64,000 bases of DNA from Zetaproteobacteria bacterium CG1_02_55_237. Its GTDB lineage: Bacteria > Pseudomonadota > Zetaproteobacteria > Mariprofundales > Mariprofundaceae. The stretch is taken from contig MNXA01000009.1 of assembly GCA_001871195.1 (NCBI GenBank), forward strand, positions 1 through 64,000, read 5' to 3'. The notes under the pieces were generated by a model. The model saw only the letters and a list, made by a program, of their open reading frames with translations. It was not told the DNA's origin and did not search any database. Both the position numbers and the translations under genes were made by a program. This document shows positions 5,431 through 30,539 of this stretch, in pieces. The stretch's first letter is position 1. Each line of letters starts with the position of its first letter.

Positions 5431-5436
5431 GCCGTA

Positions 5437-9130: not shown

Positions 9131-9154
9131 GCACAGATTCTGGAACATGGAGAG

Positions 9155-9850
9155 GTGCGATTCGAAAGTGTGCATCGACGCAAGGACGATACTACCTTCC
9201 CGATAGAAGTCAGTTCGAAACTGCTCGAACTCGACAAACCCTATTTGCTGAGCATCGTGCGCGACATCACCGAGCGCAAGCGCGCCGAGGCGGAACTACA
9301 GATATTGCAGGAACAACTGCGCGAACAAGTTCTGCACGACCCGCTGACAGGTCTCTACAATCGGCGCTATCTCGACGAAACGATAAAACGCGAACTGACC
9401 CGTGCGGAGCGTAACAAGCAGCCGGTCGGGATCGTGATGTGCGACCTCGATCATTTCAAGCTCGTCAACGACACACATGGCCATTTGGCTGGCGACGAAG
9501 TATTGCGGGTGTTTGCCGAACTGTTGAAAAAACATGCTCGCGGCAGCGATATCGTTTGTCGCTTTGGCGGCGAGGAGTTTGTGATGTTTCTTCCGGAGAT
9601 GTCACCTGCTGTTGCGTATCAACGCGCCGAGCTCTTGCGTATGGAACTTGCGAAGAAGCGGATAACGCTGGGAGCAACCGTTATACAAGTGACCGCGTCC
9701 TTCGGTGTGGCGGCCTTCCCGGAGAATGGCGAGACGATGGATAGTTTGATCCGTGCTGTGGATGCAGCGATGTATCAGGCCAAGGAGGAAGGTCGCGATC
9801 GCATCGTGGTTTCATCGGTGCGCGCTGCAGATGGTTCAGCACCCACGTGA
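9155..9850 (+). CDS. GGDEF diguanylate cyclase, downstream part of the interrupted gene
   Basis: In the frame of the preceding gene, this stretch completes the last PAS (DITERKRAEAE) and then encodes a full GGDEF domain. Its features are HDPLTGLYNRRYLDE, the metal and substrate motif DLDHFKLVNDTHGHLAGD, active site GGEEF, and an RGSD five residues before it, which is the product-inhibition I-site (RxxD). The catalytic domain looks intact. Translation after the amber would need readthrough or a restart at GTG 9155, whose nearest purine run (GGAGAG) touches the start codon and is badly spaced. Expression is therefore doubtful. If made, it would synthesise c-di-GMP without its sensor. Confidence 0.75.
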   Translation: MRFESVHRRKDDTTFPIEVSSKLLELDKPYLLSIVRDITERKRAEAELQILQEQLREQVLHDPLTGLYNRRYLDETIKRELTRAERNKQPVGIVMCDLDHFKLVNDTHGHLAGDEVLRVFAELLKKHARGSDIVCRFGGEEFVMFLPEMSPAVAYQRAELLRMELAKKRITLGATVIQVTASFGVAAFPENGETMDSLIRAVDAAMYQAKEEGRDRIVVSSVRAADGSAPT

Positions 9851-10112
9851 AGGAGTAGTCCGGTAGATATATGGTGGAAATAAGAAGACTCATCCACAGT
9901 TCATTGGGGCCTTCCGGCATCAGATTGTCGATAAAGGTTGCTTCACCAAAGATCGATGAGAGCAGGAATGTTTCGAGCATTCAGAAATCCAGCACCAATA
10001 TACAGACACATAAGAACGTTGATGTTTGAACGTCCGAAAGTGGCCGCAAATCGTCATTTGGCTTTCGTAATCGGGTAAGCATTTACCGGAGCAGGCGTTA
10101 TGCTTCGCGGCG
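9851..10112. other. Intergenic region, nothing recognised
   Basis: Some 260 bases lie between the cyclase and hrpA. I see no gene with a credible start, no tRNA and no strong terminator. Promoter elements for hrpA presumably lie in the right half. Confidence 0.3.
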
Positions 10113-14021: not shown

Positions 14022-14034
14022 GCTCGAAAGAGCC
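14021..14034. terminator. Possible bidirectional terminator hairpin
   Basis: GGCTC-GAAA-GAGCC forms a 5-bp stem with a stable GAAA tetraloop right after the hrpA stop, between two convergent genes. The T-run is poor (GTTTAG), so termination strength is doubtful. Confidence 0.35.
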
Positions 14035-14049
14035 GTTTAGCCGAACAGA

Positions 14050-14913
14050 TTAAAGGCTTAAGCGAGCGCTGATGCCCAGAGATTCGATGCGCGTGCAGAT
14101 AGACTGCATCCATGCATCAGGAAGTTTGGAGAGGTGTATGGCCTCGGCTTGCAACGAGGGTCGCGCCAGGCCATAGAGCAGCACGCCTTCGAGCCTGATG
14201 CCGCGCGATTTTGCCTCGTTCAGAAAATCGAGATAGGCGGCGATCTCCTCTTCCGCCGGTTCCTTAGCGTCCCAGGCGAACATGCAGGTCTGAATCCATG
14301 TCGGGCAAAGACCTGCGACCGCTTCCAGCTGTTGCATCTGGCGCTCTACAGTCAGGTTCACACCGTTGATGCGTGCTATCGCATCATCCGTACCGGCATC
14401 CAGCTTGAACCACACCTGCCCGCGATGCTTTGCCATCAGATCAAGCCCGCGCTTCACCTCAGGACGATGCACATAGGAACCATTGGTGATCAGCACGATA
14501 TTGATCCGGTCCAGCAACTCGGCCTGCCGCAGGCGCGATACGATGCACGCCACCACCTGCTCGAACTGCCGACTGCTCGTTGGTTCGCCATTGCCCGAGA
14601 TGGCCACATCGGCAATCGTTCGGCAATCTTCCGGAACGTGTTCCTGCATGAAGTCGCCATGCGTCAGAACATGAATAAAAGACTCCAACTCACTGTTTAA
14701 TTGGAATATATCAACTTCCGGAGCGCTGCCGCGCACAAGCTGGGGTACCTGACAATAAGCACAATGCCAGTTGCAGGCATTGTTCGGATTCAGGTTCACC
14801 CCAACCGATACCCCACCGGCACGACGCGACACCACGGGATAGACATAGGTCATACCCGCCGCGTCGCGGTCGTGGTTGGAGGTGCTCAACATGGCCTGCT
14901 TGCTATCGGACAT
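14050..14913 (-). CDS. Radical SAM protein
   Basis: From ATG 14913 the product has 287 residues. The iron-sulphur/SAM motif CxxxCxxC is Cys47, Cys51 and Cys54 (ACNWHCAYC). SAM-binding strands with SGNGEPT and VLITNGS follow, and there is no extra iron-sulphur domain. The layout resembles small radical SAM proteins related to the pyruvate-formate-lyase-activase/wybutosine group, but I cannot name a substrate. A start 37 codons further upstream is possible, but that stretch has no fold-like sequence and would run across the presumed mfd promoter. It is divergent from mfd. Confidence 0.75.
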   Translation of the reverse strand: MSDSKQAMLSTSNHDRDAAGMTYVYPVVSRRAGGVSVGVNLNPNNACNWHCAYCQVPQLVRGSAPEVDIFQLNSELESFIHVLTHGDFMQEHVPEDCRTIADVAISGNGEPTSSRQFEQVVACIVSRLRQAELLDRINIVLITNGSYVHRPEVKRGLDLMAKHRGQVWFKLDAGTDDAIARINGVNLTVERQMQQLEAVAGLCPTWIQTCMFAWDAKEPAEEEIAAYLDFLNEAKSRGIRLEGVLLYGLARPSLQAEAIHLSKLPDAWMQSICTRIESLGISARLSL

Positions 14914-14983
14914 ACTGCCAAGCCTAGGGATTCTCTGAGAAACTATACATAGGTCGCGTTGCTGTGAGAGAGAGGGATTGCGT

Positions 14984-17900
14984 ATGGCTGGGAAATGTCC
15001 TTTGCGGCATGATTCGCCGCCCATGCAATCACCTGTGCAATCAAACCCTCCCGGACTGGCATTTCAACTGGCTGCGCTTGCCCGCACAGGCGGGCTGCAT
15101 GTCTATATCTGCGAGGATCTGCGCAGCTATCGTCTGCTCTCCGAAGAGTTGTCTTTTTTTCTGCAGGATGAACCACAGCTTCTCTGGCGCTTTCCGGCCT
15201 GGGAGGTGCTGCCCTACGATCGGGTCAGCCCGCATCACGCCATTGTCGGTGAGCGTTTCTCCACCCTCGCCCGCCTGTTGCGCGATAGGCCATCGCAAGG
15301 CTTGCTGCTCACCGCCCTGCCCGCCTGGCTGCAACGCATCGCCCCTCCCGCTTCGGTGGCAGCGCATGTCTGGCAACTAAAGACCGGTGATACGCTGGAT
15401 ATCACCCTGCTCAAGGATCGGCTGTCGCTGGCCGGTATGCAGAGCACTGAACGCGTACTCGATCGTGGCGAATTTGCGGCAAGAGGCGGCATCCTCGATG
15501 TGTGGCCTGCCACTGAGGATCAGCCGCTGCGGCTGGATATGTTCGGCGATACCGTTGATTCCATCCGGCGTTTCGATGTGGAAACCCAACGTTCGGGCGA
15601 ATTGCTGGATCACTTCATCTCCGTACCGGTACGCGAGGTGATTCTTGATGATACAGGCAAGCAAACCTTTGCCGCCGCCTTCAGGGCGCGCTTCCCGCAT
15701 CTGCGCAAGCATCCGATGCTGACTTCAGCCGAAGCCGGGCGGCCGCATCCGGGCATCGAATCCCTGCTGCCGCTGGCCTATGAACAAACCGCCCGACTGG
15801 CCGATTATCTGCCGTCTGCAGCGAAGGTAATCGCAACTGCAGATGTCGAGGCAGCACGCCTCGGCTTTGCCGCACAGGTGCGCAACCAGTTCGATATGGT
15901 CCGTACCAGTACCGAGCCGCTGATAAGTCCGCAGGAATTGTTTGCGGTGGAAACGCCGATTCATGCGAATGGATTGCCACAGAGTGTTGGGATACTACCC
16001 CCGCCATCCCTGTCCGATTTCCAGCAGGAAAGACAGCCGCTGCATGCCATGCATCGCGCCCTGGCCGAATCTATGGATGCAGGCTGGCGGCTGTTGCTGG
16101 TGGCGCATGGGCCGGGACAGCAGGAACGTATGCTGGAGACCTGCGCAGGACTGCCGGGTGCCGATAAAGCCATGCATTGCCGCGGGCTGTTTGACCTTCC
16201 GGCCAAGGGCATCGCAGCCTGCATCGGCTTTCTTGATCAGGGCCTGCTGCTCGAAAAGGAAAAGATTGTCCTGCTGACCGGCCGTGAGTTGCTCGGCCAA
16301 CGCCTGCCGCGCAAGCGCGGGCGCAGCGCAGCTCTGGTGCGCGCCAACGTCTTTTCCTCGCTGCAGGAGCTGAATACCGGTGATGCCGTGGTACACGAAG
16401 ATCATGGTGTGGGTCGCTACAAGGGCTTAATAAGCCTGCCATCCGGTGATATCGATGCCGACTTCCTGCACATCGAATACGACGGCGCCAGCATCTATGT
16501 GCCGGTGGAGGACCTCGACCGGCTGCATCGCTACACAGGTGAAGATAACCCGGCACTCAACAGGCTCGGTTCGGATAAATGGAAACGCACCCGCCAGCGT
16601 GTCGAGCGCGACCTGCTGGAAATGGCGCATGAACTGATTGATACCGAGGCTGCACGCAAACAGGTGAAGCGTCCGCCCTGCCTGCTCAGCGGCGAGGCTG
16701 CGGGCGACTACGACGAATTTGCCGCCCTTTTCCCCTTTGAGGAAACCGATGACCAGGTGGAGGCCATTGACGCGGTCCTGCGCGATCTGGCGGCCGATAC
16801 ACCGATGGATCGCGTGGTATGCGGCGATGTCGGGTTTGGTAAAACCGAGGTAGCCATGCGTGCCGCCTTCTGTGTGGCGCGCTGCGGGCGACAGGTGGCC
16901 ATCATGGCGCCGACCACAGTGCTGGCCAATCAACATTTTGCCAATTTCGTCGAGCGTTTTTCAGGTTCAGGCTTCGGCATCGAAATGATGACCCGCTTGC
17001 AGGGCAAGAAGGAAGCCGAGCGCATCACGCGCGAGCTGAAGAACGGCAAAACCCGCATTATCATCGGCACGCATCGCCTGCTTTCCGAAACCTTTGAATT
17101 CGCCGATCTCGGTCTGGTGATTGTCGATGAGGAGCAGCGTTTCGGGGTAAAGCACAAGGAAAAACTCAAGGCTCTGCATGCTGCCTGCGATCTTTTGACC
17201 CTCACCGCCACACCGATTCCACGCACCTTGCACCAGACCCTCTCCGGCCTGCGCAGTGTGTCCATCATCAGCACGCCGCCTGCCGAGCGCGAACCGATTC
17301 GCACCATGGTGAGCAGCTTCGATCCGCATCTGGCCAACGAGGCAATTCGCCGCGAGATGTATCGTGGCGGACAGGTGTATTACCTGCACAACCATGTGAA
17401 GAGCATCGACCGCATTGCCGCCCGCCTGCGTGAGGAGGTTCCCGAGGCCGAGATTGGCATTGCCCATGGTCAGATGAGCCCGACGGAACTGGATCGGCAG
17501 ATGATGCATTTCTATGAAGGCCGCCTGCATGTGCTGGTATGCACAACGATTATCGAATCGGGTCTGGATGTGCCCAATGCCAATACACTGATTGTCGAGC
17601 GCGCCGATATGCTGGGCTTGGCCCAGCTACACCAGATTCGCGGCCGTGTCGGGCGCAGTCATCATCAGGCCTATGCCTATCTGTTCACCCCCGATGCCCG
17701 TGCCATGACCGCCGATGCCCGCGAACGCCTGCAAGCCATCGCCCAGCATACCGAGCTTGGCGCAGGCTTTATGCTGGCCCGCCACGACATGGAAATACGC
17801 GGCGCCGGCAATCTTCTGGGCGAACAGCAATCCGGCCAGATCGAAGCCATCGGTCTTGATCTCTATCTCGATATGCTGTCGCGCGCGGTGGCCGAATCGC

Positions 17901-18364
17901 GTGGCGCCCCGAAGAAACCGAAAACACGCGTGGAAATGCGTCTGAACGCCAACACCATCCTGCCGCCGGACTATATTCCGCAGATCGGCGAACGGCTGAG
18001 CATGTATCGCCGCATCGCACGCATTGAGAGCGACGAACAGGCCAGTCTGCTGTTCGAGGAGATGACCGACCGCTTCGGCAAGCTGCCGGATGCAGCCAGA
18101 ATGGCTCTGGAGGCTGCACGGCTGCGCTGGCGTACGGCAGAGTTGTGTATCAGCCGGCTGGATATCAGCGACAACGGTATCCGCTTCGGCTTCACCGCAG
18201 CCTCACCCATCGATATCGGCAAACTGCTGCAACGCGTGCAGCGCGAGCCGAAACGCTTCCGCCTGAGCCCGGATGGCAACCTGACGCTGTTAAAATGCTG
18301 GGATAATCAACGCGCGAGTTTTCAGACCGCATCCGATTTTCTCGACGAATTGCTTGCCGCCTAA
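14984..18364 (+). CDS. mfd: Transcription-repair coupling factor Mfd
   Basis: The product has 1126 residues. Mfd removes stalled RNA polymerase from DNA lesions and recruits UvrA. The UvrB-like N-terminal module comes first, then the RNA-polymerase-interacting CarD-like domain near residue 465 (VVHEDHGVGRYKGL). The RecG-like translocase follows with Walker A GDVGFGKTE near 613 and DEEQRFG near 714, then the motif VI region IRGRVGRS, and finally the C-terminal TRCF domain. ATG 14984 follows GAGAGAGG at 8 bases. ATG 15023 is an alternative that would shorten the protein by 13 residues. All core motifs are present. Confidence 0.95.
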   Translation: MAGKCPLRHDSPPMQSPVQSNPPGLAFQLAALARTGGLHVYICEDLRSYRLLSEELSFFLQDEPQLLWRFPAWEVLPYDRVSPHHAIVGERFSTLARLLRDRPSQGLLLTALPAWLQRIAPPASVAAHVWQLKTGDTLDITLLKDRLSLAGMQSTERVLDRGEFAARGGILDVWPATEDQPLRLDMFGDTVDSIRRFDVETQRSGELLDHFISVPVREVILDDTGKQTFAAAFRARFPHLRKHPMLTSAEAGRPHPGIESLLPLAYEQTARLADYLPSAAKVIATADVEAARLGFAAQVRNQFDMVRTSTEPLISPQELFAVETPIHANGLPQSVGILPPPSLSDFQQERQPLHAMHRALAESMDAGWRLLLVAHGPGQQERMLETCAGLPGADKAMHCRGLFDLPAKGIAACIGFLDQGLLLEKEKIVLLTGRELLGQRLPRKRGRSAALVRANVFSSLQELNTGDAVVHEDHGVGRYKGLISLPSGDIDADFLHIEYDGASIYVPVEDLDRLHRYTGEDNPALNRLGSDKWKRTRQRVERDLLEMAHELIDTEAARKQVKRPPCLLSGEAAGDYDEFAALFPFEETDDQVEAIDAVLRDLAADTPMDRVVCGDVGFGKTEVAMRAAFCVARCGRQVAIMAPTTVLANQHFANFVERFSGSGFGIEMMTRLQGKKEAERITRELKNGKTRIIIGTHRLLSETFEFADLGLVIVDEEQRFGVKHKEKLKALHAACDLLTLTATPIPRTLHQTLSGLRSVSIISTPPAEREPIRTMVSSFDPHLANEAIRREMYRGGQVYYLHNHVKSIDRIAARLREEVPEAEIGIAHGQMSPTELDRQMMHFYEGRLHVLVCTTIIESGLDVPNANTLIVERADMLGLAQLHQIRGRVGRSHHQAYAYLFTPDARAMTADARERLQAIAQHTELGAGFMLARHDMEIRGAGNLLGEQQSGQIEAIGLDLYLDMLSRAVAESRGAPKKPKTRVEMRLNANTILPPDYIPQIGERLSMYRRIARIESDEQASLLFEEMTDRFGKLPDAARMALEAARLRWRTAELCISRLDISDNGIRFGFTAASPIDIGKLLQRVQREPKRFRLSPDGNLTLLKCWDNQRASFQTASDFLDELLAA

Positions 18365-18404
18365 ACACGTCAAACTCAAGCCAACCTCAGCCCCTGACGG
18401 CCAA

Positions 18405-20003
18405 TCAAGTCGTAAAAGCAAATCTTTTCTCTGCAAAAAGCTTCAGACAGGCATCAACAACAACCGGATCATAAAACTTACCCCGCTGTTTTCTGATTTC
18501 ATCAAGAGCCGCTTCAAGGCCCAAGCCGGCCCTGTATGGCCGGTGACTGGAAATGGCCTCAACCACATCGGCCACAGCTACAATGCGTGCTTGCAGAGAT
18601 ATCTCATCCCCTTTCAATCCTTGCGGATAACCGGAACCATCCATGCGTTCATGATGCTGATAGACGATATCCGCCACCGGCCACGGGAATTCAACATCCT
18701 GGAGAATGTCATAACCCACCTGGCAATGAGTCTGGACCATGAGATATTCGAGATCCGTCACCCTGCCTGGTTTGCTCAATATTTCGGCCGGCAACTGAAT
18801 CTTGCCGATATCATGGATGAACGCCCCCATTCTTATTCCCTCGACTACGTCCTTATCAAGCCTCATCTCCTGAGCAAGGGATCTGGCAAGGTGGGATACT
18901 TGTTGTTGATGGCCTGCCGTATACGGATCTCTGGCCTCAACAGCTTTAGCAATGGCCAGCACAGTACCGATAAGGCTTTTTCGTAAACTTTTTGCACTTC
19001 TCACAAGCTTTTCCCTGTCGGCGTTTCTTTCAGTCAGATCCCGAATAAATGCATTGAATGTAACTGAGTCATCCTCCCTTAAGGGTACAATGGATAGTTC
19101 TACAGAAAGCGTATTGCCATTTTTATGCAATGCGGAAATTTCCATGAGCTTGTTAAGTGCCTTATGCTCACCTGTCTCAACGTAATGCTTTAATCCTGCT
19201 GTATGCGCTTTCCTGAATTTCGCCGGGATAATGGTATCCGCCAAATTTCTTCCTATGGCTTCCTTTTTGGTAAAGCCAAACATGCTTACTGCTTCAGGAT
19301 TCCAATCAATAATATTGCCTTGTGCATCCATGACAATAAATGCATCCCTGGCATTCGCGATGACGTTTAAGGCATGGGCCTCTGAACTTTCCAGAAGACC
19401 CTTAGCTGTCTTGCGTGCTGCACTCTGAAATTTTTCTAAAATAGCTTCAGCCGTCTTGCGTTCAGTAATTTCCATAATCGATAAAAACAGGCCGTCGCAA
19501 CCGGTATCTTTGTCTTTCTTAACAGTCGTTTGAAGGGCTACCCAGAATATACTTTTATCGGTTTTTTTAAGTCGAATGCCTATGCTGTGATTCTGATGCT
19601 TTGCTGTAAATGCTGACTTGCCGTAAAGGTAATATTTGTCCTGATCCTCACCTGCAATAAAGGATGGAAAGCTTTTTTTTATCAATCTGCTGCGCTCTAC
19701 GCCCAGCAGGCGGGCCAAGGTAAGATTAGCCTGCATGATGATGCCCTCGGCACTAATACTGGCGTAACCGACTGGCGAAAAGTCGTAGAGCTCGATGAAC
19801 CTGTCGCGGGCCTCACTTAATTCTAACTCGGTTTTACGCAGCTCTTCATTCTGCATCTCCAGCTCAATCTGATGGATACGCAGTTCATGGATCAGCTTCC
19901 GGGTATCATCAGGGGAAAGTTCCGGCTCTTGCTCACCCAATCCTGCAAGTTGGGCCTCAGCCCGTTGGCGAATATCGTTCTTCCCGCCCTGCTCTTTCTT
20001 CAA
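18405..20003 (-). CDS. PAS-PAS-HD-GYP c-di-GMP phosphodiesterase
   Basis: From a TTG at 20003 (GGAG 8 bases upstream) the product has 532 residues. A TTG at 20033 would add 10. A helical region of HELRIHQIELEMQNEEL type leads into two PAS domains (about 65-185 and 205-335). The C-terminus is an HD-GYP domain with HDIGK (His397-Asp398) and HHERMDGSGYPQG (450-462), the full signature of enzymes that break c-di-GMP to GMP. No transmembrane segment is seen, so it is a cytoplasmic sensor. It stands alone and converges on mfd. Confidence 0.88.
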   Translation of the reverse strand: MKKEQGGKNDIRQRAEAQLAGLGEQEPELSPDDTRKLIHELRIHQIELEMQNEELRKTELELSEARDRFIELYDFSPVGYASISAEGIIMQANLTLARLLGVERSRLIKKSFPSFIAGEDQDKYYLYGKSAFTAKHQNHSIGIRLKKTDKSIFWVALQTTVKKDKDTGCDGLFLSIMEITERKTAEAILEKFQSAARKTAKGLLESSEAHALNVIANARDAFIVMDAQGNIIDWNPEAVSMFGFTKKEAIGRNLADTIIPAKFRKAHTAGLKHYVETGEHKALNKLMEISALHKNGNTLSVELSIVPLREDDSVTFNAFIRDLTERNADREKLVRSAKSLRKSLIGTVLAIAKAVEARDPYTAGHQQQVSHLARSLAQEMRLDKDVVEGIRMGAFIHDIGKIQLPAEILSKPGRVTDLEYLMVQTHCQVGYDILQDVEFPWPVADIVYQHHERMDGSGYPQGLKGDEISLQARIVAVADVVEAISSHRPYRAGLGLEAALDEIRKQRGKFYDPVVVDACLKLFAEKRFAFTT

Positions 20004-20149
20004 TTGACCACTCCATCTTAAAGACAACAACAATCTTTCATTATTCTCATCTTAGCAGGTTTTAGACCTTTAAGAGGATGCGCTGCAGGCTTTCTTCCTG
20101 TTGATTTGCAGCGATATCCGCAATCGCCATCAGAATAGACACGATTTTA

Positions 20150-20163
20150 TTGATTTAGATCAA
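20150..20163. promoter_or_regulatory. FNR/Dnr-type operator in front of the nor genes
   Basis: TTGAT-TTAG-ATCAA is a perfect palindrome of the FNR/Dnr/NnrR class (TTGAT-N4-ATCAA). It lies 56 bases before the ATG at 20220. A Dnr-like regulator is encoded just after norB, so control of nor by that protein, or by FNR, is likely. The position would fit an activator site upstream of a -10 element, but no -10 is obvious. Confidence 0.8.
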
Positions 20164-20219
20164 GGTGGCTCGCCCACCATGCGCATACCATTCCGGAAAA
20201 ATTGGCGGCAGGTATGCAT

Positions 20220-20543
20220 ATGATTGATCCGGTTGAGATGCAGAACTTCTTTGCAGCGTTCTTTTCAGGGGCGTTGGTGATTGTTTTCGGGGCGGTTTAT
20301 GCCCTGCTTCTCGCCTGGGGCCGCCTTAAAGCAAGCCGGGGCTTTGTGCTGGCCGCCTATGGCTCCTACGCCATGCTTGCAGCATCTGTGCTGGTGCTCT
20401 CCGAAACGATGAACTTCAGCGGCTTCTGGAATGTTCTTACCGCGCTCATGTTGCTCGGCTATCTGCTTGCACCGCAAGGCATCTGGATGCTCAGTCGCGA
20501 TACGCACAGCCACGACGAACCCGATTCACCGATTCAGCCATAA
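20220..20543 (+). CDS. Small membrane protein upstream of norC
   Basis: The protein has 107 residues and three hydrophobic stretches: FFAAFFSGALVIVFGAVYAL, VLAAYGSYAMLAASVLVL and a weaker one near the end. A His- and Asp-rich hydrophilic tail (DTHSHDEPD) follows. I do not recognise a named family. ATG 20220 is chosen because GGCAGG lies about 8 bases before it; ATG 20214 and TTG 20202 are alternatives. It is the first gene after the FNR-type site and 33 bases before norC, so it is probably an accessory of nitric oxide reductase assembly or function (inference from position). Confidence 0.65.
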   Translation: MIDPVEMQNFFAAFFSGALVIVFGAVYALLLAWGRLKASRGFVLAAYGSYAMLAASVLVLSETMNFSGFWNVLTALMLLGYLLAPQGIWMLSRDTHSHDEPDSPIQP

Positions 20544-20576
20544 CAAATCAACCCTAACAAAACGACGGAGGTAACT

Positions 20577-21167
20577 ATGACATCCAAATGGTGGGCAAAT
20601 GAAGAATCCTGGCGAAAGGCAGCGATATGGGTGACAGCATTCATGCTTGTCGTTCTTATCGTCCTCACCTTCGATACGATCCCCAAGATTTCGGTGGGTT
20701 CCGAACGCGTTCCCGCCTACAGCGTGATCAATCAGCGTATTGACTACGTATTCAACGAACAGCGCAATTTTCAGGTGCCTGTCATCGGCACTGAACAACC
20801 TCTATTCGGCACGATATTGAACGAAGATGAAGCCGAAGCACTGGTCACCTGGGGCAAGAAGATCACCCAGGGCCGCAACTGCATGAACTGCCACACCCTG
20901 CTCGGCAACGGTGCCTATTACGCGCCCGATCTGACCAAGTCCTGGCTCGACCCCAACTGGGGCGACAGCAGTATGCGCGAGGCCATGATGATCCGCTTCC
21001 TGATGGACCCGCCGAACAACTACATGAACGACTCAGGGCGCAAGATGCCGAATATGCATATCAGCGAGGATGAGGCCAAGGCCGTCATCGCTTTCCTGAA
21101 GTGGATGTCGTCGATCGATACCAATGGCTTCCCCTACAACTTTAAACCAATCGATCAGGAGGGCTGA
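20577..21167 (+). CDS. norC: Nitric oxide reductase subunit C (membrane cytochrome c)
   Basis: The protein has 196 residues. One N-terminal membrane anchor (residues 17-32) precedes a periplasmic monohaem cytochrome c domain with the haem site CMNCH (Cys102, Cys105, His106). GRKMPNM near 155-160 supplies the likely axial methionine. LLGNGAYYAPDLTKSW after the haem site is typical of NorC. It passes electrons to NorB for 2 NO to N2O. GGAGGT precedes the ATG. The stop is immediately followed by the norB ribosome binding site. Confidence 0.93.
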   Translation: MTSKWWANEESWRKAAIWVTAFMLVVLIVLTFDTIPKISVGSERVPAYSVINQRIDYVFNEQRNFQVPVIGTEQPLFGTILNEDEAEALVTWGKKITQGRNCMNCHTLLGNGAYYAPDLTKSWLDPNWGDSSMREAMMIRFLMDPPNNYMNDSGRKMPNMHISEDEAKAVIAFLKWMSSIDTNGFPYNFKPIDQEG

Positions 21168-21168
21168 G

Positions 21169-22623
21169 ATGAGTCTCGGAATCATGGATAGCAACAATCT
21201 AAACGGTGGTCAGAAACTTGCCGTCAAGTATTTCAGCGTCGCGGTCATCCTGTTTGTGGCCCAGATTCTGTTCGGGCTGATTGCCGGCCTGCAGTTCATC
21301 ATGCCGGAGCTGTTCTTCAACGTGCTGGATTTCAACGTCACGCGCATGGTGCACATCAACGCCATGGTGGTCTGGCTGCTCATGGGCTTTATCGGCTCGG
21401 TCTACTGGCTGCTGGAGGATGAGGCAGGTGTTGAAACCGTCGGCCTGAAACTCGGCAACATTGCCTTCTGGGTGCTGACGGCAGCGGTTACCGTAGTCGT
21501 GCTTGTTTACCTGTTCATTCAGGTAGGTCCGGGCGACGATTTTACCCGCTGGTTCATCAATGAGGGCCGCGAATATATCGAGGCGCCACGTTGGGCTGAC
21601 ATCGGCATCGTGGTCTGCGTACTGATCTTCTTCTACAACGCAGCAGCCACCTTCATGAAGGGTCGCTGGAGCGGCATCAGCGGCGTGCTGATTCTCGATC
21701 TGGTGGCTCTGGCAGGCATCTATCTGGCCGGCATGTTCTATACCACCAACATCTCCGTTGATCAGTTCTGGTGGTGGTGGGTCATTCATCTGTGGGTGGA
21801 AGCGACCTGGGAAGTGCTGGTTGGCTGCATCATGGCCTGGGGCCTGATTAAACTGCTCGGTGTGCGCCGTAAGATCGTCACCACCTGGTTGTATATCGAA
21901 GTGGCGCTGATGTTCGGTTCGGGCATTCTGGGCCTCGGTCATCACTACTTCTGGATCGGCACACCTGAATACTGGCTGTCCATCGGCGGCCTGTTCTCAG
22001 CCCTTGAGCCTATTCCGCTGGTCGCCATGGTGGTGCATTCGATCTACGACTCCGGCGTGCATAAATTCAAGAGTGCGAATCACCCGGCCATGGCCTGGCT
22101 GATTGCACACACCTTCGGTAACTTCTTCGGTGCCGGTGTGTGGGGCTTCATGCATACCTTGCCGCAGATCAATCTCTACACGCACGGCACGCAGTGGTCG
22201 GCATCGCATGGCCACCTCGCCTTCTTCGGTGCCTATGCCACCATCGTCATCGCTGTGTTCTACATTGCTGTGCAGCAATGGCGCGGCGGCGTATGGATGT
22301 CGGGTAATCTCCCGGGAAATGGCTGGAAATGGAAATGGGCGTTGGGCCTGTTGAACTTCGGCGTGGTTGGCATGACCGTGGCCCTGCTGATTTCCGGCTA
22401 TGAGCAATCGTTCATCGAGCGCGCCATCGAAGGCTCCACCTGGTCTGGCTATTTCGCGGCTCAGATTCACCCGTGGTTCGTGCAGGGCATGCAGTGGCGC
22501 ATGGTGTTCGGCCTGGTCACCACGGCGGGCATTGTGCTGCTGGTTTGGGACCTGTTGACCATCGGCAAGGGCGAAAGCCGGCCCCGGCAGAAAGTTGGAG
22601 AGGCAATCGGGCAACAAGCCTGA
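21169..22623 (+). CDS. norB: Nitric oxide reductase subunit B (catalytic)
   Basis: The product has 484 residues with about 12 membrane helices and is the cNOR member of the haem-copper oxidase family. Ligands in view: His62 (MVHINAMVVW), His207 with Glu211 (HLWVEATWE), His258-His259 (GLGHHYFW), and His347 and His349 (ASHGHLAFFG); Glu280 is also present. The Glu next to the active-site His replaces the oxidase tyrosine system, as expected for NO reduction at a haem b3/non-haem iron centre. ATG 21169 follows AGGAGGG, so the longer in-frame extension is not used. No norQ or norD lies in the window. Confidence 0.95.
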   Translation: MSLGIMDSNNLNGGQKLAVKYFSVAVILFVAQILFGLIAGLQFIMPELFFNVLDFNVTRMVHINAMVVWLLMGFIGSVYWLLEDEAGVETVGLKLGNIAFWVLTAAVTVVVLVYLFIQVGPGDDFTRWFINEGREYIEAPRWADIGIVVCVLIFFYNAAATFMKGRWSGISGVLILDLVALAGIYLAGMFYTTNISVDQFWWWWVIHLWVEATWEVLVGCIMAWGLIKLLGVRRKIVTTWLYIEVALMFGSGILGLGHHYFWIGTPEYWLSIGGLFSALEPIPLVAMVVHSIYDSGVHKFKSANHPAMAWLIAHTFGNFFGAGVWGFMHTLPQINLYTHGTQWSASHGHLAFFGAYATIVIAVFYIAVQQWRGGVWMSGNLPGNGWKWKWALGLLNFGVVGMTVALLISGYEQSFIERAIEGSTWSGYFAAQIHPWFVQGMQWRMVFGLVTTAGIVLLVWDLLTIGKGESRPRQKVGEAIGQQA

Positions 22624-22642
22624 TAGCTGTCAAACGCTACAC

Positions 22643-22676
22643 ACAGGGCCGGCTTGACGCCGGCCCTGTTGTTTTT
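22643..22676 (+). terminator. Rho-independent terminator after norB
   Basis: An 11-bp perfect GC-rich stem (ACAGGGCCGGC / GCCGGCCCTGT) with a 5-base loop is followed by TGTTTTT. It ends the nor transcript before the regulator gene. Confidence 0.92.
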
Positions 22677-22753
22677 ATGCTCCCAGCATAACAACCGGCA
22701 GGGAGTCCATTATCAATAGTGCCTATATCCGCAAGCTGATTACTGGCCTTGCC

Positions 22754-23401
22754 ATGTTTCGGACCACCCAGCCAGCCGAACTCGATGTAATTGCCTCCGG
22801 CTCAAAAATTATCAGCGTCGCCAAGGGAAATCCCCTGTTTCATCAGGGTGATCCATGCACCGGCTTTTATCTGGTGCTCTCAGGCGGCATCCGGCTTGCC
22901 TTCACCTCACCCGATGGTCGCGAACACACCGCCAAGATTGCCGTTGCCGGCGATCATTTCGCCGAAGCCGTGATGTTTCTCGGTCAACCCTACCCTCTTA
23001 ACGCCTGCGCCATGCAGGATGCTGATGTGCTGTTTATCGGCAAGGATGCGGTGGATACCTGCCTCAGACAAAACCCCGATTTCTCGCGCATCCTTATCGC
23101 CAACCTGAGTATCCAGCTACATAATCTTGCCAACAAGATTGCCACCCTCACCCTGCACAATGCCACGCAACGGGTTATCGGCTATCTGTTGCGTTATATC
23201 GAAAAAGGCGAACAGGCCGGAGGCGGCGTACACTTCAGACTGCCGGCCAGCAAACACGTTATTGCCTCACATTTGAATATTTCTCCGGAAACGCTGTCGC
23301 GCACCCTGCGCCAGCTCGAAGATGTGGGACTGATGAGCGTTGAAGGGAAAAAGATCTGTATCCCGGATATCGAAAAATTCAGGAACTTCGATACCCTGTA
23401 A
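22754..23401 (+). CDS. Crp/Fnr-family regulator, Dnr-like
   Basis: From ATG 22754 the product has 215 residues. A cyclic-nucleotide-type sensor barrel (FHQGDPCTGFYLVLSGGI, then HFAEAVMFLGQPYP) and a dimer helix lead to a C-terminal helix-turn-helix with HVIASHLNISPETLSRTL. The recognition helix has E-x2-SR, as in FNR and DNR, which fits TTGAT half-sites like that at 20150. There is no FNR-type N-terminal cysteine cluster, so haem/NO sensing like DNR is more likely than an iron-sulphur switch (inference). Fifteen codons upstream of ATG 22754 read as a typical first helix (AYIRKLITGLA), but no ATG, GTG or TTG opens them; an ATT at 22709 might. Confidence 0.85.
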   Translation: MFRTTQPAELDVIASGSKIISVAKGNPLFHQGDPCTGFYLVLSGGIRLAFTSPDGREHTAKIAVAGDHFAEAVMFLGQPYPLNACAMQDADVLFIGKDAVDTCLRQNPDFSRILIANLSIQLHNLANKIATLTLHNATQRVIGYLLRYIEKGEQAGGGVHFRLPASKHVIASHLNISPETLSRTLRQLEDVGLMSVEGKKICIPDIEKFRNFDTL

Positions 23402-23456: not shown

Positions 23457-24545
23457 ATGCTGACTAATTTCCTGCTTCCCCCATCCTTTGAACTGCCTAT
23501 TCAGGTGAACTCCCCTGTGTTTGCCACGCCGGGTGGCGGGCAGCTGCTGGTATGCAGCACGCATGATGCCTACAAGCTGCGCGAGCATTATGGCTGTGCC
23601 ACGCTGCAGGAGGTGCAGATACGTATCAGCATGCAGGAGGGTAAACGGCTGGATATCTGGCCTTCCGAACTGGATGCCGCACACATGAATGCCCATATCC
23701 ACGGCTGCAACGATTTCAACACCTTCAAGGAACTATGTGAGTCCCTGATGCTGGAACGCATCGGCGTGCTTCAGGTCAGCACACGCGAGGGCCATTGCCG
23801 CATGCAGCTTACCGGCTCAGTGGATGCCAAAACCATGACCGCACGTCTGCGCCCGCTTTCCGAACGCCTGCAGGTCGATATTGCTATTACCGCCCTGAAG
23901 CCTTCCCCTCGTCTCTCTGAGCCCGGCCTGCTGCTGATGGATATGGATTCCACACTGATCCGCAACGAATGCATTGACGAAATCGCCGATTTCATGGGCA
24001 TCAAGGCGCAGGTCGCCGCCATTACCCAGCTTTCCATGGAGGGCAAACTCGATTTTGTCGCCTCCTTCACCGAACGCGTCAAACTGCTCAAGGGGCTGGA
24101 TGCCGGTGTGCTGCAAACTGTACTGGATGAACGCATCGAGCTGACCGAGGGTGCCGAAGCGCTGATCAAGGGCTTACAGGCGCATGGTTGGAAAACAGGC
24201 CTTGTATCCGGCGGCTTCACCTTCTTCACCAGCTATTTCGAGCAACGCCTCGGCCTCGATTTTTCAATGGGTAACGTACTGGAGATCGTGGACGGCAAAC
24301 TCACCGGCGGATTCATCGGTGAGATTGTGGATGCCAACAGCAAGCGCACAGCACTGCTTGGCAAAGCAAAGGAATGGAATATTCCCATGTCGCAAACCAT
24401 CGCCATCGGCGATGGTGCCAACGATCTGCCGATGATCGAAGCCGCCGGCATGGGCATCGCCTTCCACGCCAAACCCCGCGTGCGCGAACTGGCCCCCTAC
24501 GCCCTCTCCCACGGTGGCCTCGACCGCACCCTAGACCTGCTATAA
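23457..24545 (+). CDS. serB: Phosphoserine phosphatase
   Basis: The protein has 362 residues and performs the last step of serine synthesis. An ACT-like N-terminal half (to about residue 150) is followed by the HAD phosphatase domain with nucleophile motif DMDSTLI (Asp162 and Asp164), the LVSGGFT loop, and IGDGANDLPM with its metal-binding Asp residues. All catalytic motifs are intact. The last 29 codons occur a second time at 29073-29159, beyond the next two genes. That suggests the 3' end of serB was the site where the 4.5-kb module downstream entered. Confidence 0.93.
   Translation: MLTNFLLPPSFELPIQVNSPVFATPGGGQLLVCSTHDAYKLREHYGCATLQEVQIRISMQEGKRLDIWPSELDAAHMNAHIHGCNDFNTFKELCESLMLERIGVLQVSTREGHCRMQLTGSVDAKTMTARLRPLSERLQVDIAITALKPSPRLSEPGLLLMDMDSTLIRNECIDEIADFMGIKAQVAAITQLSMEGKLDFVASFTERVKLLKGLDAGVLQTVLDERIELTEGAEALIKGLQAHGWKTGLVSGGFTFFTSYFEQRLGLDFSMGNVLEIVDGKLTGGFIGEIVDANSKRTALLGKAKEWNIPMSQTIAIGDGANDLPMIEAAGMGIAFHAKPRVRELAPYALSHGGLDRTLDLL
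24456..24542 (+). repeat. Direct repeat, copy A: 3' end of intact serB
   Basis: These 87 bases match 29073-29159 in the same orientation. The first 62 (to 24517) are identical. The remaining 25 differ at six places, all third-codon (synonymous) changes. Copy A carries the functional end of serB. Confidence 0.95.
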
Positions 24546-24561
24546 GGAGAAGCTTCCGGCC

Positions 24562-26859
24562 TTAACGCGGCGGCTCCGGAAGCAACATCCCGGGCGGTTC
24601 CGGCTGCAGCAACGGTTCTTCTATCAACGGCTGTACCGGCATCTCGGGCGCCATACCCGCCTCCATCTCCGGATTAAAGTTGGGATTGTTTGCGATAAAT
24701 TCGTCACAACCTCGCTGAAAATTCTTCTCCGCTGAGGAGAACCAGGGAGATGCTCCTTTCAACCAGTGGAGCACTTCTCCGTTGATAGGACGTGCGGCCG
24801 TACCACACTCGATCATCGAAAGCGGGATCGTGTATTTGCCGAATAGGTTATTGTTGGCGAAATGGAAGCTCGCCTGCACCCATTGATCCATTGGCTGTTC
24901 CCATTTGCATTCGAGCGGTTTCATGCCGGGCGGTGTGACTAGCCGTGATACCTTTTTCATTCGCAACCGCCCTTCAATGCCATCACCGCTGCCCGTTCCC
25001 TCAAGGAAAGCATCCCCGATGGAAAAATTATCCATATCAAGCCCCTGGAGAGCATGGCAAACATCAACCACCTCCCCGCGGATACGGGAGCCTTCCACAG
25101 TCAGTCTGACCAACTGCCCTCCGAAAGAGTAAAGCCCGGCATGTTCTGGATCGATGGGCGTTCCCGTGGGTGCTGGTGACTCAGTCGAAGATCCGGTGGT
25201 CACCTTTTCCTTCGGCTTTCCGCATCCATCCTGCGAATAGGTAATTTTAACCGCTTTCAATGCTGCCAGAGCATCGTCCTGGGTTTTGAGGGCATATGCC
25301 AACAATTCATCGAGCACAGCCTCACCCTGCCCTGCCGCGCTATTACCTCCGGCCCGTTTCCCTGCCGCGGCCGGCGCGATCTCCAGACAGGCACGCACCT
25401 TGCGCAGTGCATCGTTCTGCGCGAATTCCATAGCCATCTGGCCCTGCTCAATGGCCTGTTCCAGAGCCAGTCGTGCCTGATCCAGAGGCCACGCGAATTC
25501 GCTGTCTATCGCCGCCTCGTGGCTTCGTAACGCCAGGAGCTCGTCCTCTACGGCGCGCTCGGCCATGTCCCTGGATTCGCGGTAGCTGTCCGCTGCGGAT
25601 GAACCATCCTTTCTTGCCTGGGCGTATTTCCGGTTCCATTCCCCGGCCTTCTTTTCATTTGCGGCAATCTTTGCGCGCAACTCATCCAGCGTCTTCAACC
25701 TTGCTTCGTAGTCCTTGCGGACATCCTTGAGCTTGCTGCTGGCCGCTTCGATGCGTGCCTGATACTTGTCCGATACCGCCTTCAGGTCCGTTTCCGCCTC
25801 CGCCCGGCACTCCTTGAGACGCTGGCGCTTGATGCGGCAAGTAACGGCCAGACCCTCGAATTCTTCCAGCAGGGTCCCTGCCTGCTTTTCGGCTTTGCGC
25901 AGATGGATGTAGAGCCTTTGCGACAAGCGCCATTGCAAAATCCACAGCATGCGGTTGCGCTCATTTTCCGATAACTGCTGTTTCAAGGCCGAGAGCCTGT
26001 CTTGTCGTTGTTTCAGCTTTTCCTTGGCGATCCCCTCCAGCCCGGCGCGCAATACACCCAGGCCGATAGTGGACGGGGACAGCTCGATTTTTCCACTCGG
26101 GTTCGCCAGATAGGCGTTGTAGGCCTGAGCGGTGAGTGCATCGATGGCCTGATTCAACACCTCGTTGGTGGTGCTCGACACAAGATTCGGGTCCTTAACC
26201 CCCTTGGAGAAGATGGTGTTGATGTCTTCCTGCAGACTCTGGCTAAGGGCCGTGGCGACCAGCTTGCGCAAGGTGGCTTTGCTGGAGTCCAGCATCATCG
26301 AATTGCCGGTCCGCCCGGCGGTGTTGGCAGCAGACACAGTGAAGTCGCCGAGTGCAAGATTCAGGCGCTTGCTCAAGGTGCCGATATTACCGGTGATAAT
26401 CTGATTGAAATCGATCAGCGCATCGGAAACGGCTACCGCCATTTCCTGGTCGTTCAGTCCACCTTTGCTCTCCAGCAATAACCCCTCGGTATCCACCATG
26501 ATACCAGCCATGCGATGCATCTGCTTGCGCAGCGCCTCAGTGGACGACAGCACGGCCTGCAAGGCCTGCAGATACTTCGCCAGAGCCGTGGCGGCGACCT
26601 CGGCACCCTCGCAGTTCATCTCCCCGCACATCGCCTTGTCTTCGGACGCCGCCTTTGAAGCCGCAGCAAGCTGTGTCCTGATGCGTTGCATTTCCTCGCT
26701 AAGCATTTCGCCCTGATATTCGATGCTCATGCTTTGTCCGGCGCGCTCGGCGAACTGTTGCCGGACCTGCGTTTCGGGGCTGGATGCGGCATATGCGCCG
26801 GCTGGAAGCAGGCCAAAAAACATAAAAAGAAGAGAAAATGTCGCAGAAATGCGTTTCAT
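24562..26859 (-). CDS. Secreted coiled-coil protein of unknown function
   Basis: From ATG 26859 (AGGGAG upstream) the product has 765 residues. A signal peptide (KRISATFSLLFMFFGLLPAG to AYA) shows export. Residues roughly 30-330 are helical, with one Cys pair (CGEMNC). Residues 330-540 are a long coiled coil with further cysteines (TCRIKRQRLKEC). Then a linker leads to a C-terminal beta-rich domain (HAGLYSFGGQLVRLTVEG), and the protein ends in a Pro/Glu-rich tail (EPLLQPEPPGMLLPEPP). I do not recognise a family. It is transcribed away from the VWA gene across a shared 157-base promoter region, and both lie inside the serB-repeat bracket, so they probably act together in the periplasm. Confidence 0.75.
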   Translation of the reverse strand: MKRISATFSLLFMFFGLLPAGAYAASSPETQVRQQFAERAGQSMSIEYQGEMLSEEMQRIRTQLAAASKAASEDKAMCGEMNCEGAEVAATALAKYLQALQAVLSSTEALRKQMHRMAGIMVDTEGLLLESKGGLNDQEMAVAVSDALIDFNQIITGNIGTLSKRLNLALGDFTVSAANTAGRTGNSMMLDSSKATLRKLVATALSQSLQEDINTIFSKGVKDPNLVSSTTNEVLNQAIDALTAQAYNAYLANPSGKIELSPSTIGLGVLRAGLEGIAKEKLKQRQDRLSALKQQLSENERNRMLWILQWRLSQRLYIHLRKAEKQAGTLLEEFEGLAVTCRIKRQRLKECRAEAETDLKAVSDKYQARIEAASSKLKDVRKDYEARLKTLDELRAKIAANEKKAGEWNRKYAQARKDGSSAADSYRESRDMAERAVEDELLALRSHEAAIDSEFAWPLDQARLALEQAIEQGQMAMEFAQNDALRKVRACLEIAPAAAGKRAGGNSAAGQGEAVLDELLAYALKTQDDALAALKAVKITYSQDGCGKPKEKVTTGSSTESPAPTGTPIDPEHAGLYSFGGQLVRLTVEGSRIRGEVVDVCHALQGLDMDNFSIGDAFLEGTGSGDGIEGRLRMKKVSRLVTPPGMKPLECKWEQPMDQWVQASFHFANNNLFGKYTIPLSMIECGTAARPINGEVLHWLKGASPWFSSAEKNFQRGCDEFIANNPNFNPEMEAGMAPEMPVQPLIEEPLLQPEPPGMLLPEPPR

Positions 26860-27016
26860 GTGCGTCTCCCTGTTACCCTCGGCATCATCATTTAATCCCG
26901 ATTTCCAGCCCGGAGCAAGCATTTCGTGCACAGGGAAGCGCATGATTTTTGCAATCGACATATGTGCAGGTAATTCACTAGACTGTTTGCAATCGCCAAC
27001 CTTGGGGAGGTCGGAA
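26860..27016. promoter_or_regulatory. Divergent promoter region with repeated TTTGCAATCG
   Basis: The 157 bases between the two divergent genes contain TTTGCAATCG twice in direct orientation (26948-26957 and 26986-26995), 38 bases apart. This spacing, close to four helical turns, would suit a regulator binding one face of the DNA. No known operator consensus is claimed. Confidence 0.4.
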
Positions 27017-29047
27017 ATGATGAAACGTTACCTGATATTCGCATTGGCTTTGAGCATGTTTCTCCCGTTAACCGCACGCGCCGAGGGACAGCAGGCCATG
27101 CTGGTACTCGATGCCTCGGGCAGCATGTGGGGACAGATCAATGGTAAGTCCAAGATTGAGATCGCCCGCGAGGTGATCGCCGATGTGCTCAAGGGATGGA
27201 ATCCCGACACACGTCTAGGCCTGATCGCCTACGGTCACCGCAACAAGAGCGACTGTGAGGACATCGAAACACTGATTCGTACAGGACCGCTTGATGCCAC
27301 AGCCTTCAACAAGGTCGTAGCCGGCATCCAGCCCAAGGGCATGACGCCGATCTCCGCCGCCGTGATCCGTGCCGCCGATGCGCTGCAGTACAGCCGCGAG
27401 AAGGCCACTGTCATTCTGGTCTCCGACGGACAGGAAACCTGCCATGCCGATCCCTGCAAGACGGCTAGCGAGCTCGAAAAACGTGGCGTGGATTTCACCA
27501 TGCACGTCATCGGCTTCGATGTCTCCGACAAGCAAGGGCAACAGCAACTGCGCTGCATGGCCGACAACACTGGCGGGCGTTTCTTCACTGCCGCCAATGC
27601 AGCCGATCTGAAGCAGGCTCTGAGCACAGCCGTCAAGCAGGTGGAAGAAGCCAAGCCGGACCCGAACGCACCGGGCAACCTGCTGCTAACCACCGTTCTG
27701 GCCGAGGGGACGCCACCGCTCAATGTCAGCGAATGCAGTATATACAGCCAGCAGGGAGATGCAGGACGGCAGCAAGTGGATCGTCATGTAACGCATGCGA
27801 CCGAGCACGTGTTCAAATTGCCACCGGGACAATACATCGCCACCTGCAGTTATGGCTCCGCCTCGGCGGAAAAACAGGTGAGCATCATGGCTGGCAAGGG
27901 TGTGGGCGAACAACTTGTGCTCAATGCTGGCGAGCTCAATATGCACGGCGTGCTGCATGCAGGTGGAGACCCGGTCAACAGCGACGATTACCGTATCTAT
28001 CGTGAAACGACCGACGCATCCGGTAAGACGATCCGCCAGCAGTTTGCCTTCAGCAACCTGCATAATACCAAAGTCCATTTCACACTGCCGGCCGGCGACT
28101 ACATCGCGGCCATGAGCTACGGCAAAACCTCGGCTGAACAAAAGATACACATCGAAGCAGGTAAGACAGAGGAAATCGAACTGAACCTGCATGCCGGCAC
28201 ACTTCGCTTGCACGGCGTGCTGCATGCGGGCGGCGACCCACTCAACAGCGACGACTACCGCATCTATCGTGAAACCACCGACGCATCCGGCAAGACGGTT
28301 CGCCAGCAGATCGCCTTCGTCAACCTGCATTATACCAACGTTACCTTCACATTATCGGCCGGCGACTACATCGCCTTCATGGGCTACGGTCAGGCTTCGG
28401 CAGAACAAAAGGTACACGTCGAGGAAGGCAAGGCGCAGGAGATCGAACTGAACCTGCATGCCGGCAGACTGCATATCACCCCACTCGATGCTCCCGGCGG
28501 CAAGCCATTGAATATCGACGACTACCGCATCTACCGCGAAACCACCGACGAGTTTGGCAAAACGGCCCGCCGTCAGGTTTCCTACGTCAACATGCACTAT
28601 ACCAATGTCACCTTCACGCTACCCGACGGAGACTATATCGCCGTCGTCAGCCACAGAGGTCTTGAGGTCGAAAAAGCAGTGCATGTCGAAGAGGGCAAGA
28701 GCGTTGATGTGGAAATCGTACTGGCCCGAAAACATTACGACAGCCCTGTTGGCACCTGGAACAGCAGCGGAGGAAGGCTGGAACTCAATGCTAAGAGCGG
28801 AGATCGGTTCGAAGGCCACTACAGCACCGACAACGGCCGACTTATCCTGCAACGCGATGGCAGCCGCATGTCCGGGTACTGGGTCGAGGACGGCTCCAGC
28901 CAAACCTGTGCATCGAAACGTGACGGCAGCCTTCACTGGGGCCGCATCGAGTTGCAATTCAATAGTGACAACAACGGCTTTTCCGGCTGGTGGTCGTATT
29001 GCGATAGCAGCGAACATAGTGGTGACTGGGGCGGCGAGCGTAACTGA
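27017..29047 (+). CDS. Secreted von Willebrand A protein with three 89-residue repeats
   Basis: From ATG 27017 (GGGGAGG upstream) the product has 676 residues. A signal peptide precedes a VWA domain (about 24-210) with a full metal-ion-dependent adhesion site: DASGS (Asp32, Ser34, Ser36), the Thr of KGMTP, and the Asp of VSDGQE. Its cysteines (SDCED, ETCHADPC, RCMADN) suggest disulphides. A degenerate unit is followed by three tandem 89-residue beta-rich repeats, each with DDYRIYRETTD near residues 323, 412 and 501. A C-terminal domain (about 575-676) is rich in Gly, Ser and Trp. It is likely periplasmic or surface-bound and may bind protein or carbohydrate ligands; the target is unknown. Confidence 0.85.
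   Translation: MMKRYLIFALALSMFLPLTARAEGQQAMLVLDASGSMWGQINGKSKIEIAREVIADVLKGWNPDTRLGLIAYGHRNKSDCEDIETLIRTGPLDATAFNKVVAGIQPKGMTPISAAVIRAADALQYSREKATVILVSDGQETCHADPCKTASELEKRGVDFTMHVIGFDVSDKQGQQQLRCMADNTGGRFFTAANAADLKQALSTAVKQVEEAKPDPNAPGNLLLTTVLAEGTPPLNVSECSIYSQQGDAGRQQVDRHVTHATEHVFKLPPGQYIATCSYGSASAEKQVSIMAGKGVGEQLVLNAGELNMHGVLHAGGDPVNSDDYRIYRETTDASGKTIRQQFAFSNLHNTKVHFTLPAGDYIAAMSYGKTSAEQKIHIEAGKTEEIELNLHAGTLRLHGVLHAGGDPLNSDDYRIYRETTDASGKTVRQQIAFVNLHYTNVTFTLSAGDYIAFMGYGQASAEQKVHVEEGKAQEIELNLHAGRLHITPLDAPGGKPLNIDDYRIYRETTDEFGKTARRQVSYVNMHYTNVTFTLPDGDYIAVVSHRGLEVEKAVHVEEGKSVDVEIVLARKHYDSPVGTWNSSGGRLELNAKSGDRFEGHYSTDNGRLILQRDGSRMSGYWVEDGSSQTCASKRDGSLHWGRIELQFNSDNNGFSGWWSYCDSSEHSGDWGGERN
27950..28715 (+). 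repeat. Three tandem 267-bp coding repeats
   Basis: The DNA segment around the DDYRIYRETTD codons recurs at exact 267-base steps (27977, 28244, 28511). Copies 1 and 2 are close to identical over long runs; copy 3 is more diverged. A period of 89 codons without frame change points to duplication of a folded domain. Confidence 0.9.
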
Positions 29048-29064
29048 CCCGGATTGAACGGCTG

Positions 29065-29195
29065 GCATAAGAATCGCCTTCCACGCCAAACCCCGCGTGC
29101 GCGAACTGGCCCCCTACGCCCTCTCCCACGGTGGTCTCGATCGCACCCTTGATCTTCTTTGCGTATTTTTAATACGGACCAGACAGACACCTTGA
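29065..29195 (+). pseudogene. serB 3' fragment
   Basis: In frame, this piece encodes the serB C-terminus (IAFHAKPRVREL to GLDRTLDLL). Instead of the stop found in serB it continues CVFLIRTRQTP to TGA at 29193-29195. The six differences from serB are silent, so this fragment was under protein-coding selection until recently. It may be the original chromosomal 3' end, displaced when the module inserted. There is no start codon or ribosome binding site. Confidence 0.8.
29073..29159 (+). repeat. Direct repeat, copy B: displaced serB 3' end
   Basis: This is the second copy of the repeat at 24456-24542, 4617 bases away. Its left flank (GGCATAAGA) resembles the serB codons before the repeat (GGCATGGGC) for only a few bases. 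Confidence 0.95.
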
Positions 29196-29256: not shown

Positions 29257-29766
29257 ATGACAACACATGGTTTACACGCCAATGCACATCGCCATGATCC
29301 ATATCGAACATTCAAGTTCCAGGTCTTGATTGACGGAAAACCAGTTGCTGGCTTGAAGAAAATGAGCGCGTTAATGAAGCCGTCGCGGGACATGGGCTGG
29401 CGCGCCGGCGGCGATAAACCTCATATGCGCACACTTCCGGGCGGCACCATGTATGAGGCGATTACACTCGAACAGGGCCTGACACATGACCCGGTTTTTG
29501 AGGCATGGGTTAACAAGGTGAACAGCTACGATGAAAATAGTGCTGCGTCTCTCAAGGACTTCCGCAAGGACATCGTAATCAATGTTCTTAACCTTCAGGG
29601 GCAAGTGGCAATATCCTACAAAGTCTATCGCGCCTGGGTTTCAGCATATCAGGCGCTGCCGGATTTCGATGCAAGCAGCACGAATGCGGTTGGCATCCAA
29701 AGCATCAAGCTGGAGCATGAGGGATGGGAGCGCGACACAGCAGTAAGCGAGCCTGCCGAAAGCTGA
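29257..29766 (+). CDS. Contractile-tail tube protein-like (gp19/TIGR02241 family), orphan
   Basis: The protein has 169 residues. The sequence YRTFKFQVLIDGKPVAGLKK, then RAGGDKPHMRTLPG and YEAITLEQGLTHDPVFEAWV, follows the pattern of tail-tube proteins of myophages and of extracellular contractile injection systems (Afp/PVC/MAC). There the family forms hexameric rings of the inner tube, and RxLPG...LxRGLTxD is the core signature. GGGAG lies about 8 bases before the ATG. No sheath, baseplate or spike gene is near, so it is an orphan. It may supply a distant injection system, or it may have been adopted for another use. The call is from remembered family pattern. Confidence 0.65.
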   Translation: MTTHGLHANAHRHDPYRTFKFQVLIDGKPVAGLKKMSALMKPSRDMGWRAGGDKPHMRTLPGGTMYEAITLEQGLTHDPVFEAWVNKVNSYDENSAASLKDFRKDIVINVLNLQGQVAISYKVYRAWVSAYQALPDFDASSTNAVGIQSIKLEHEGWERDTAVSEPAES

Positions 29767-29957: not shown

Positions 29958-30539
29958 ATGAAAAAGATGATCGCTACAGCAGCACTCGCACTGGCCATCA
30001 CCGGCGCAGCCTCTTCGGCAAAAGCACAGGACATTTCCTACTACACCGGCCTGGGCCTGGGCACGCTTAACACCGAGTACAAGGCCACTGGCGTTGACCA
30101 GACCAAGACAACCCTCGGCGGCTTTGTTAAATTCGGTGCGGATTTCAATGAGTACTTCGCTGCAGAATTGCGTCTTGGCATGAGCGGCAAGAACAAGAAG
30201 GTCATCGGTGGAACCGAGCGCACTTTCTCCAGCCCGTTCTTCGTCTCCTACCTGGCCAAGGGCAAGTACCCGGTCACATCTGACATCGATGTGTTCATGC
30301 TGGCTGGTGCCACCACCGCACGCATTAAGGGCACGTCCGCAGGCCTTACCCAGACCAAGACCAAGACCGGCCTGAGCCTGGGTGCTGGTATGGATTACAA
30401 GCTCGACAGCAATGTCTCCGTCGGTGCTGAGTGGACCCAGTACATGTTCCCGGTCAAGCTGGCCGCGGGTTCCGTGTTCGGCACTGATGCCAAGGCCCGT
30501 ATGTGGGGCGCGACTGTCAACACCACCTACCACTTCTAA
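29958..30539 (+). CDS. Outer-membrane beta-barrel protein
   Basis: The protein has 193 residues. A signal peptide (MKKMIATAALALAITGAASS, cut after AKA) is followed by alternating amphipathic strands typical of a small eight-strand OmpA-like barrel. It ends in the outer-membrane assembly signal with terminal Phe (TYHF). GGGAG lies upstream, and a strong terminator follows, so it is a single-gene transcript. Codon choice is strongly biased (AAG, GGC, CTG), as in highly expressed genes. No ligand can be named. Confidence 0.85.
   Translation: MKKMIATAALALAITGAASSAKAQDISYYTGLGLGTLNTEYKATGVDQTKTTLGGFVKFGADFNEYFAAELRLGMSGKNKKVIGGTERTFSSPFFVSYLAKGKYPVTSDIDVFMLAGATTARIKGTSAGLTQTKTKTGLSLGAGMDYKLDSNVSVGAEWTQYMFPVKLAAGSVFGTDAKARMWGATVNTTYHF

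Follow-up and report, generated by a model that had tools for sequence, protein, structure and literature searches.

The intact serB gene of Zetaproteobacteria bacterium CG1_02_55_237, a genome that its named relatives place in the iron-oxidizing Mariprofundaceae (Zetaproteobacteria), is followed downstream by a second copy of its own 3'-end, and two further genes of foreign appearance lie in between. The locus therefore raises the question of how these two genes arrived and which of the two serB ends is the original one. The initial annotation of the stretch, which comprises 64,000 nucleotides and is referred to here as the window, suggested a mobile element that uses serB as its attachment site. 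Our analysis indicates a real and well-marked insertion, which looks like the result of an ordinary, one-off recombination rather than a demonstrable mobile element.

The serB gene (23457..24545, plus strand) encodes a phosphoserine phosphatase of 362 amino acids, an enzyme of serine synthesis, and matched TIGR00338 above the cut-off. Sequence comparison confirmed that its final 87 coding bases are present again at 29073-29159, at a spacing of 4617 nt, and that 62 identical bases are followed by six silent differences in 25. The identical core is found at 24456..24517 within serB and at 29073..29134 in the displaced copy, and the respective tails follow at 24518..24545 and 29135..29162, all on the plus strand. 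Overall, the repeat extends over 98 nt with 91% identity (24444-24541 and 29061-29158). To the right of the core, all six mismatches in 25 nt are third-position and silent. To the left, the last 12 nt of the unstranded junction segment between the upstream VWA gene and the displaced serB end (29048..29072) match serB at only 8 positions, and the changes are non-silent, including ATG>ATA and GGC>AGA, which alter a conserved SerB motif. The core and its flanks differ in their mismatch content by more than chance (0/62 versus 6/25 mismatches on the right, Fisher p=3.5e-4; 0/62 versus 4/12 on the left, Fisher p=4.3e-4).

The long-form serB genes of relatives provide the scale for these differences. 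In 45 pairs, the same 62 nt differed at 1-14 positions (median near 8) and the last 25 nt typically at about 6; the G079 row was left out of the tail comparison and its zeros were not counted. Therefore, the tails of the two copies differ as alleles would, whereas the cores do not. In the displaced copy, LDLL is followed by TGC instead of one of the stop codons of relatives (TGA, TAA or TAG), and this copy consequently reads 10 codons further. It is a fragment and not a functional serB end. A whole-genome search retrieved only these two copies of the serB end, and a degenerate third one elsewhere in the 64-kb window was not convincingly found. When the 37-aa serB end was searched in 74 genomes of the family, 64 gave a match and two copies occurred only here; none of the other 63 has a second serB end. 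SerB proteins of the family come in two forms, one of 362 aa and one of 222-240 aa, the latter being present in two genomes of the same genus, G001 and G003 (about 65% identity).

Exactly two divergent genes are enclosed by the copies, as had been annotated, and both products are predicted to be secreted. One is a coiled-coil protein of 764 aa, counted from the ATG at 26856 (24562..26856, minus strand; the ORF is open to 26961). The other, encoded at 27017..29047 on the plus strand, contains a VWA domain, three repeats of 89 aa (27962-28654), and a C-terminal region. Above the cut-off, Pfam recognized VWA in the latter and nothing in the coiled-coil protein. AlphaFold runs without alignment gave models of low confidence for both proteins (mean pLDDT 38 and 49), and that of the coiled-coil protein, at this low confidence, would consist of long helices and a beta-rich end. 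Both N-termini read as signal-peptide-like and one protein has a VWA domain; therefore, our guess from the domains is that the cargo probably acts in the periplasm or at the cell surface. At the DNA level, the VWA repeats are three in-frame units of 267 bp with 77-83% identity, which suggests repeat expansion. The stretch between the copies has a GC content of 57%, compared with 55% for the window, and searches with Pfam, PHROGs, NCBIfam and PADLOC did not identify a recombinase in it, in agreement with the annotation that an integrase or transposase is lacking.

Relatives of the two genes were scarce. Searches of the family, the phylum (399 genomes), GTDB patterns, plasmids, phages, and viral contigs returned none for the coiled-coil protein. 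Those of the VWA gene within Mariprofundaceae are all distant, and the pairing of this gene with a coiled-coil gene was not found among relatives; in G027, G030 and G007, the VWA gene lies next to other large genes, one of which is BcsB-like. The VWA protein had no match in viral contigs and two distant matches in phages, both to the VWA domain. Plasmid-borne alphaproteobacterial VWA proteins (e.g., of Maritalea, Ruegeria and Paracoccus) share about 50% identity over the signal peptide and the VWA domain, but the match stops after that domain, and no coiled-coil homologue lies beside the Maritalea gene.

The flanking genes indicate which DNA is the newcomer. Relatives in the family lack the module. 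Here, the displaced serB end is followed by a lone tail-tube-like gene (29257..29766, plus strand; Phage_T4_gp19 / TIGR02241), a beta-barrel OMP gene (29958..30539, plus strand), sucrose genes, and a gene, W_37825, that we take to be DUF1015-like. The order in G079 is serB, the OMP gene, another gene, and then the DUF1015-like gene, and several Mariprofundus genomes also have the latter downstream of serB. Because this OMP gene, which in our genome lies past the displaced copy, comes after serB in G079, the displaced end is probably original. It has kept a neighbor that is probably ancestral and, therefore, the DNA preceding it would be the newcomer. The empty site that had been expected in relatives was found only approximately: serB of G079 does run into the OMP gene, but the tail-tube-like gene is absent there, too, and the spacer between serB and the OMP gene is not alignable with the DNA of this genome. 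In G002, the nearest relative, serB is followed by other genes and the OMP block has moved 80 kb away from it, so that G002 cannot serve as an empty site. The tail-tube-like gene is outside the insertion proper. It is of the contractile-tail inner-tube type, and its sole relative in the family (78%) was found in G082 (L108, about 4864-18840) within a contractile-injection-like cluster; the sheath gene of the genome under study maps to a different contig (C13), with a similarity of only 44%.

The tails themselves point in the same direction. The intact tail is nearest to G002 (3 differences, versus 8 to G020), whereas the displaced tail is nearest to G020 (4 differences, versus 7 to G002), as is the body of serB. 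On 25 nt this is weak and no more than suggestive, but it agrees with the substitution pattern in marking the intact tail as donor-type. Taken together, an identical core with exclusively silent differences on its right, the relatives without the module, and the serB-OMP order of G079 argue well for an insertion by which serB gained a new tail and the old one was displaced by 4.6 kb, and to that extent the annotated idea of a newly supplied serB end is borne out. Accordingly, we infer that the last 25 coding bases of serB and its stop codon are incoming DNA. A housekeeping gene can thus serve as a landing place and yet stay functional, its end having been swapped with silent changes only.

With moderate confidence, we favor host recombination, either a RecA-dependent single crossover or homology-facilitated recombination, as the route by which the module came in. 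Both genes would have entered as one piece of foreign DNA from a related bacterium, with a homologous serB 3'-end at one edge. An exchange via the conserved 62-bp stretch near the 3'-end, the presumed crossover zone, would have linked the incoming DNA to the chromosome; serB would have kept its own body and gained the donor's last 25 bases, with their silent differences, as well as its stop codon, and the original tail, no longer coding, would have moved 4.6 kb downstream. In our view, the host RecA probably mediated either a single crossover with a circularized, non-replicating fragment or, if the fragment was linear, homology-facilitated illegitimate recombination. Direction, donor and the role of RecA are what we infer from the pattern, and the same outcome results from any exchange inside the core, provided that the DNA recombining with the chromosome contains a second serB end. 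A core with a silent-only side and a non-silent side is what would be expected if a functional allele had recombined with a non-functional copy. The homologous end is present as a direct duplication, one copy of which shows donor-type divergence, and host recombination is also favored by the 62-bp identical stretch and by a locus with other gene gains. Decayed serB homology may be represented by the 12 nt that precede the displaced core, and these possibly mark a short-homology edge; they fit a circularized fragment and an attP-like site equally well. A genome with serB beside these two genes was not found, and the donor may be unsampled. Against host recombination we count that an exact break at a gene 3'-end with a restored frame is also a hallmark of tyrosine-recombinase att sites, and that the serB-OMP spacer of G079 cannot be aligned.

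Similar footprints have been described. In E. coli, circularized fragments were integrated by a single crossover, and sequenced clones contained direct duplications of the homologous end of 109-950 bp (PMC3240628). As here, the insert is flanked by a duplicated homologous gene end and there is no site-specific recombinase; in contrast to that experiment, the event is deduced from one genome, and the repeat is about 87-98 bp long and diverged on one side. At T6SS/Rhs loci, including T6SS loci of V. cholerae, displaced gene 3'-ends have been attributed to homology-facilitated recombination (PMC5361080). There, too, new genes arrive with a new 3'-end and the old end is orphaned downstream, but serB is a housekeeping gene and not a polymorphic toxin, and a single displacement event is seen. 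A displaced gene 3'-end alone is thus no proof of an integrase.

The upstream side of serB bears on a different explanation, in which a block with its own serB, perhaps together with nor-fnr genes, replaced the resident serB except for the last ~100 bp, and the 62 bp of identity in the remnant arose by subsequent gene conversion. Where a relative with a long serB has mfd and serB on one contig, the gap between the two is 27-72 bp. In this genome alone, a PAS/HD gene lies between them, together with a norX-norC-norB-fnr block (18405-23401), which agrees with the arrival of such a block. In addition, the distances of serB disagree with those of mfd: identity to G002 is 81% for serB versus 87% for mfd, and identity to Mariprofundus is 86% versus 68%. 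Therefore, an exchange of serB between lineages has probably happened at least once. The serB protein tree was mostly unresolved. The mfd-serB locus is, by these comparisons, prone to exchange, and for Zetaproteobacteria the region is marked as a place of gene gain. However, a replacement of serB requires the additional gene-conversion event, and the serB leader (AAGGACA before ATG) is closer to that of G002 than to that of Mariprofundus, which suggests that the 5'-end of serB is resident. Furthermore, the closest family match of norB (91% identity) is in G087, where the block lies divergently beside mfd, on its other side, and G087 has a different, short serB. We consider replacement to be quite improbable. 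A tandem duplication of the serB 3'-end followed by decay, with no donor, would account for the existence of a direct repeat, but leaves the two inserted genes unexplained, and decay cannot readily produce 0/62 differences beside six silent ones in 25. The silent-only divergence implies that both tails evolved while coding. The substitution pattern thus largely excludes this possibility, and we give it hardly any credence.

The annotated interpretation as an attL/attR pair stood in part: direct repeats of a gene 3'-end do flank cargo, but RecA-type integration leaves the same footprint. If serB were an attachment site, the locus could be a decayed CIME, i.e., an element at the serB 3'-end that once depended on a tyrosine recombinase and has lost its integrase and transfer genes, leaving the serB end as attL, the displaced end as attR, and two cargo genes between them. 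The position at a gene 3'-end with a restored frame and cargo between direct repeats fit this layout, and CIMEs without an integrase are a described class, in which cargo likewise lies between a reconstituted and a displaced gene 3'-end (PMC5704250). In contrast to these, a related ICE, IME or integrase at serB was present in no genome examined, and there is no tandem element. Recurrent use of an att site is not apparent in the other 63 matched genomes, none of which has the second serB end; the serB end was not matched in plasmids, phages, or viral contigs, so that an attP was not found; and the literature search returned no report of serB as an att site. Together with the negative recombinase searches in the module, these results speak against the mobile element that had been proposed, and we regard a decayed CIME as unlikely. 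A joint claim that goes further, namely that Mariprofundaceae possess a recombinase-less cassette system that moves pairs of secreted-protein genes into the serB 3'-end with an integrase supplied in trans, and that serB is a new att site, seems very improbable to us.

The two non-Xer-like integrases of this genome adjoin groEL and tRNA-Ser, without a serB-like core nearby, which is a further point against a CIME at serB. One of the genes lies 217 bp past groEL on contig C28, and a second copy of the final 18 bases of groEL lies 6.9 kb downstream (L160 5502-5519 and 12415-12432). This probably represents an integrase-bearing element at the groEL 3'-end, which is, however, repetitive in sequence. 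The other adjoins tRNA-Ser(CGA) at the end of contig C52 (L159 6547-8033) and is probably the edge of another integrated element.
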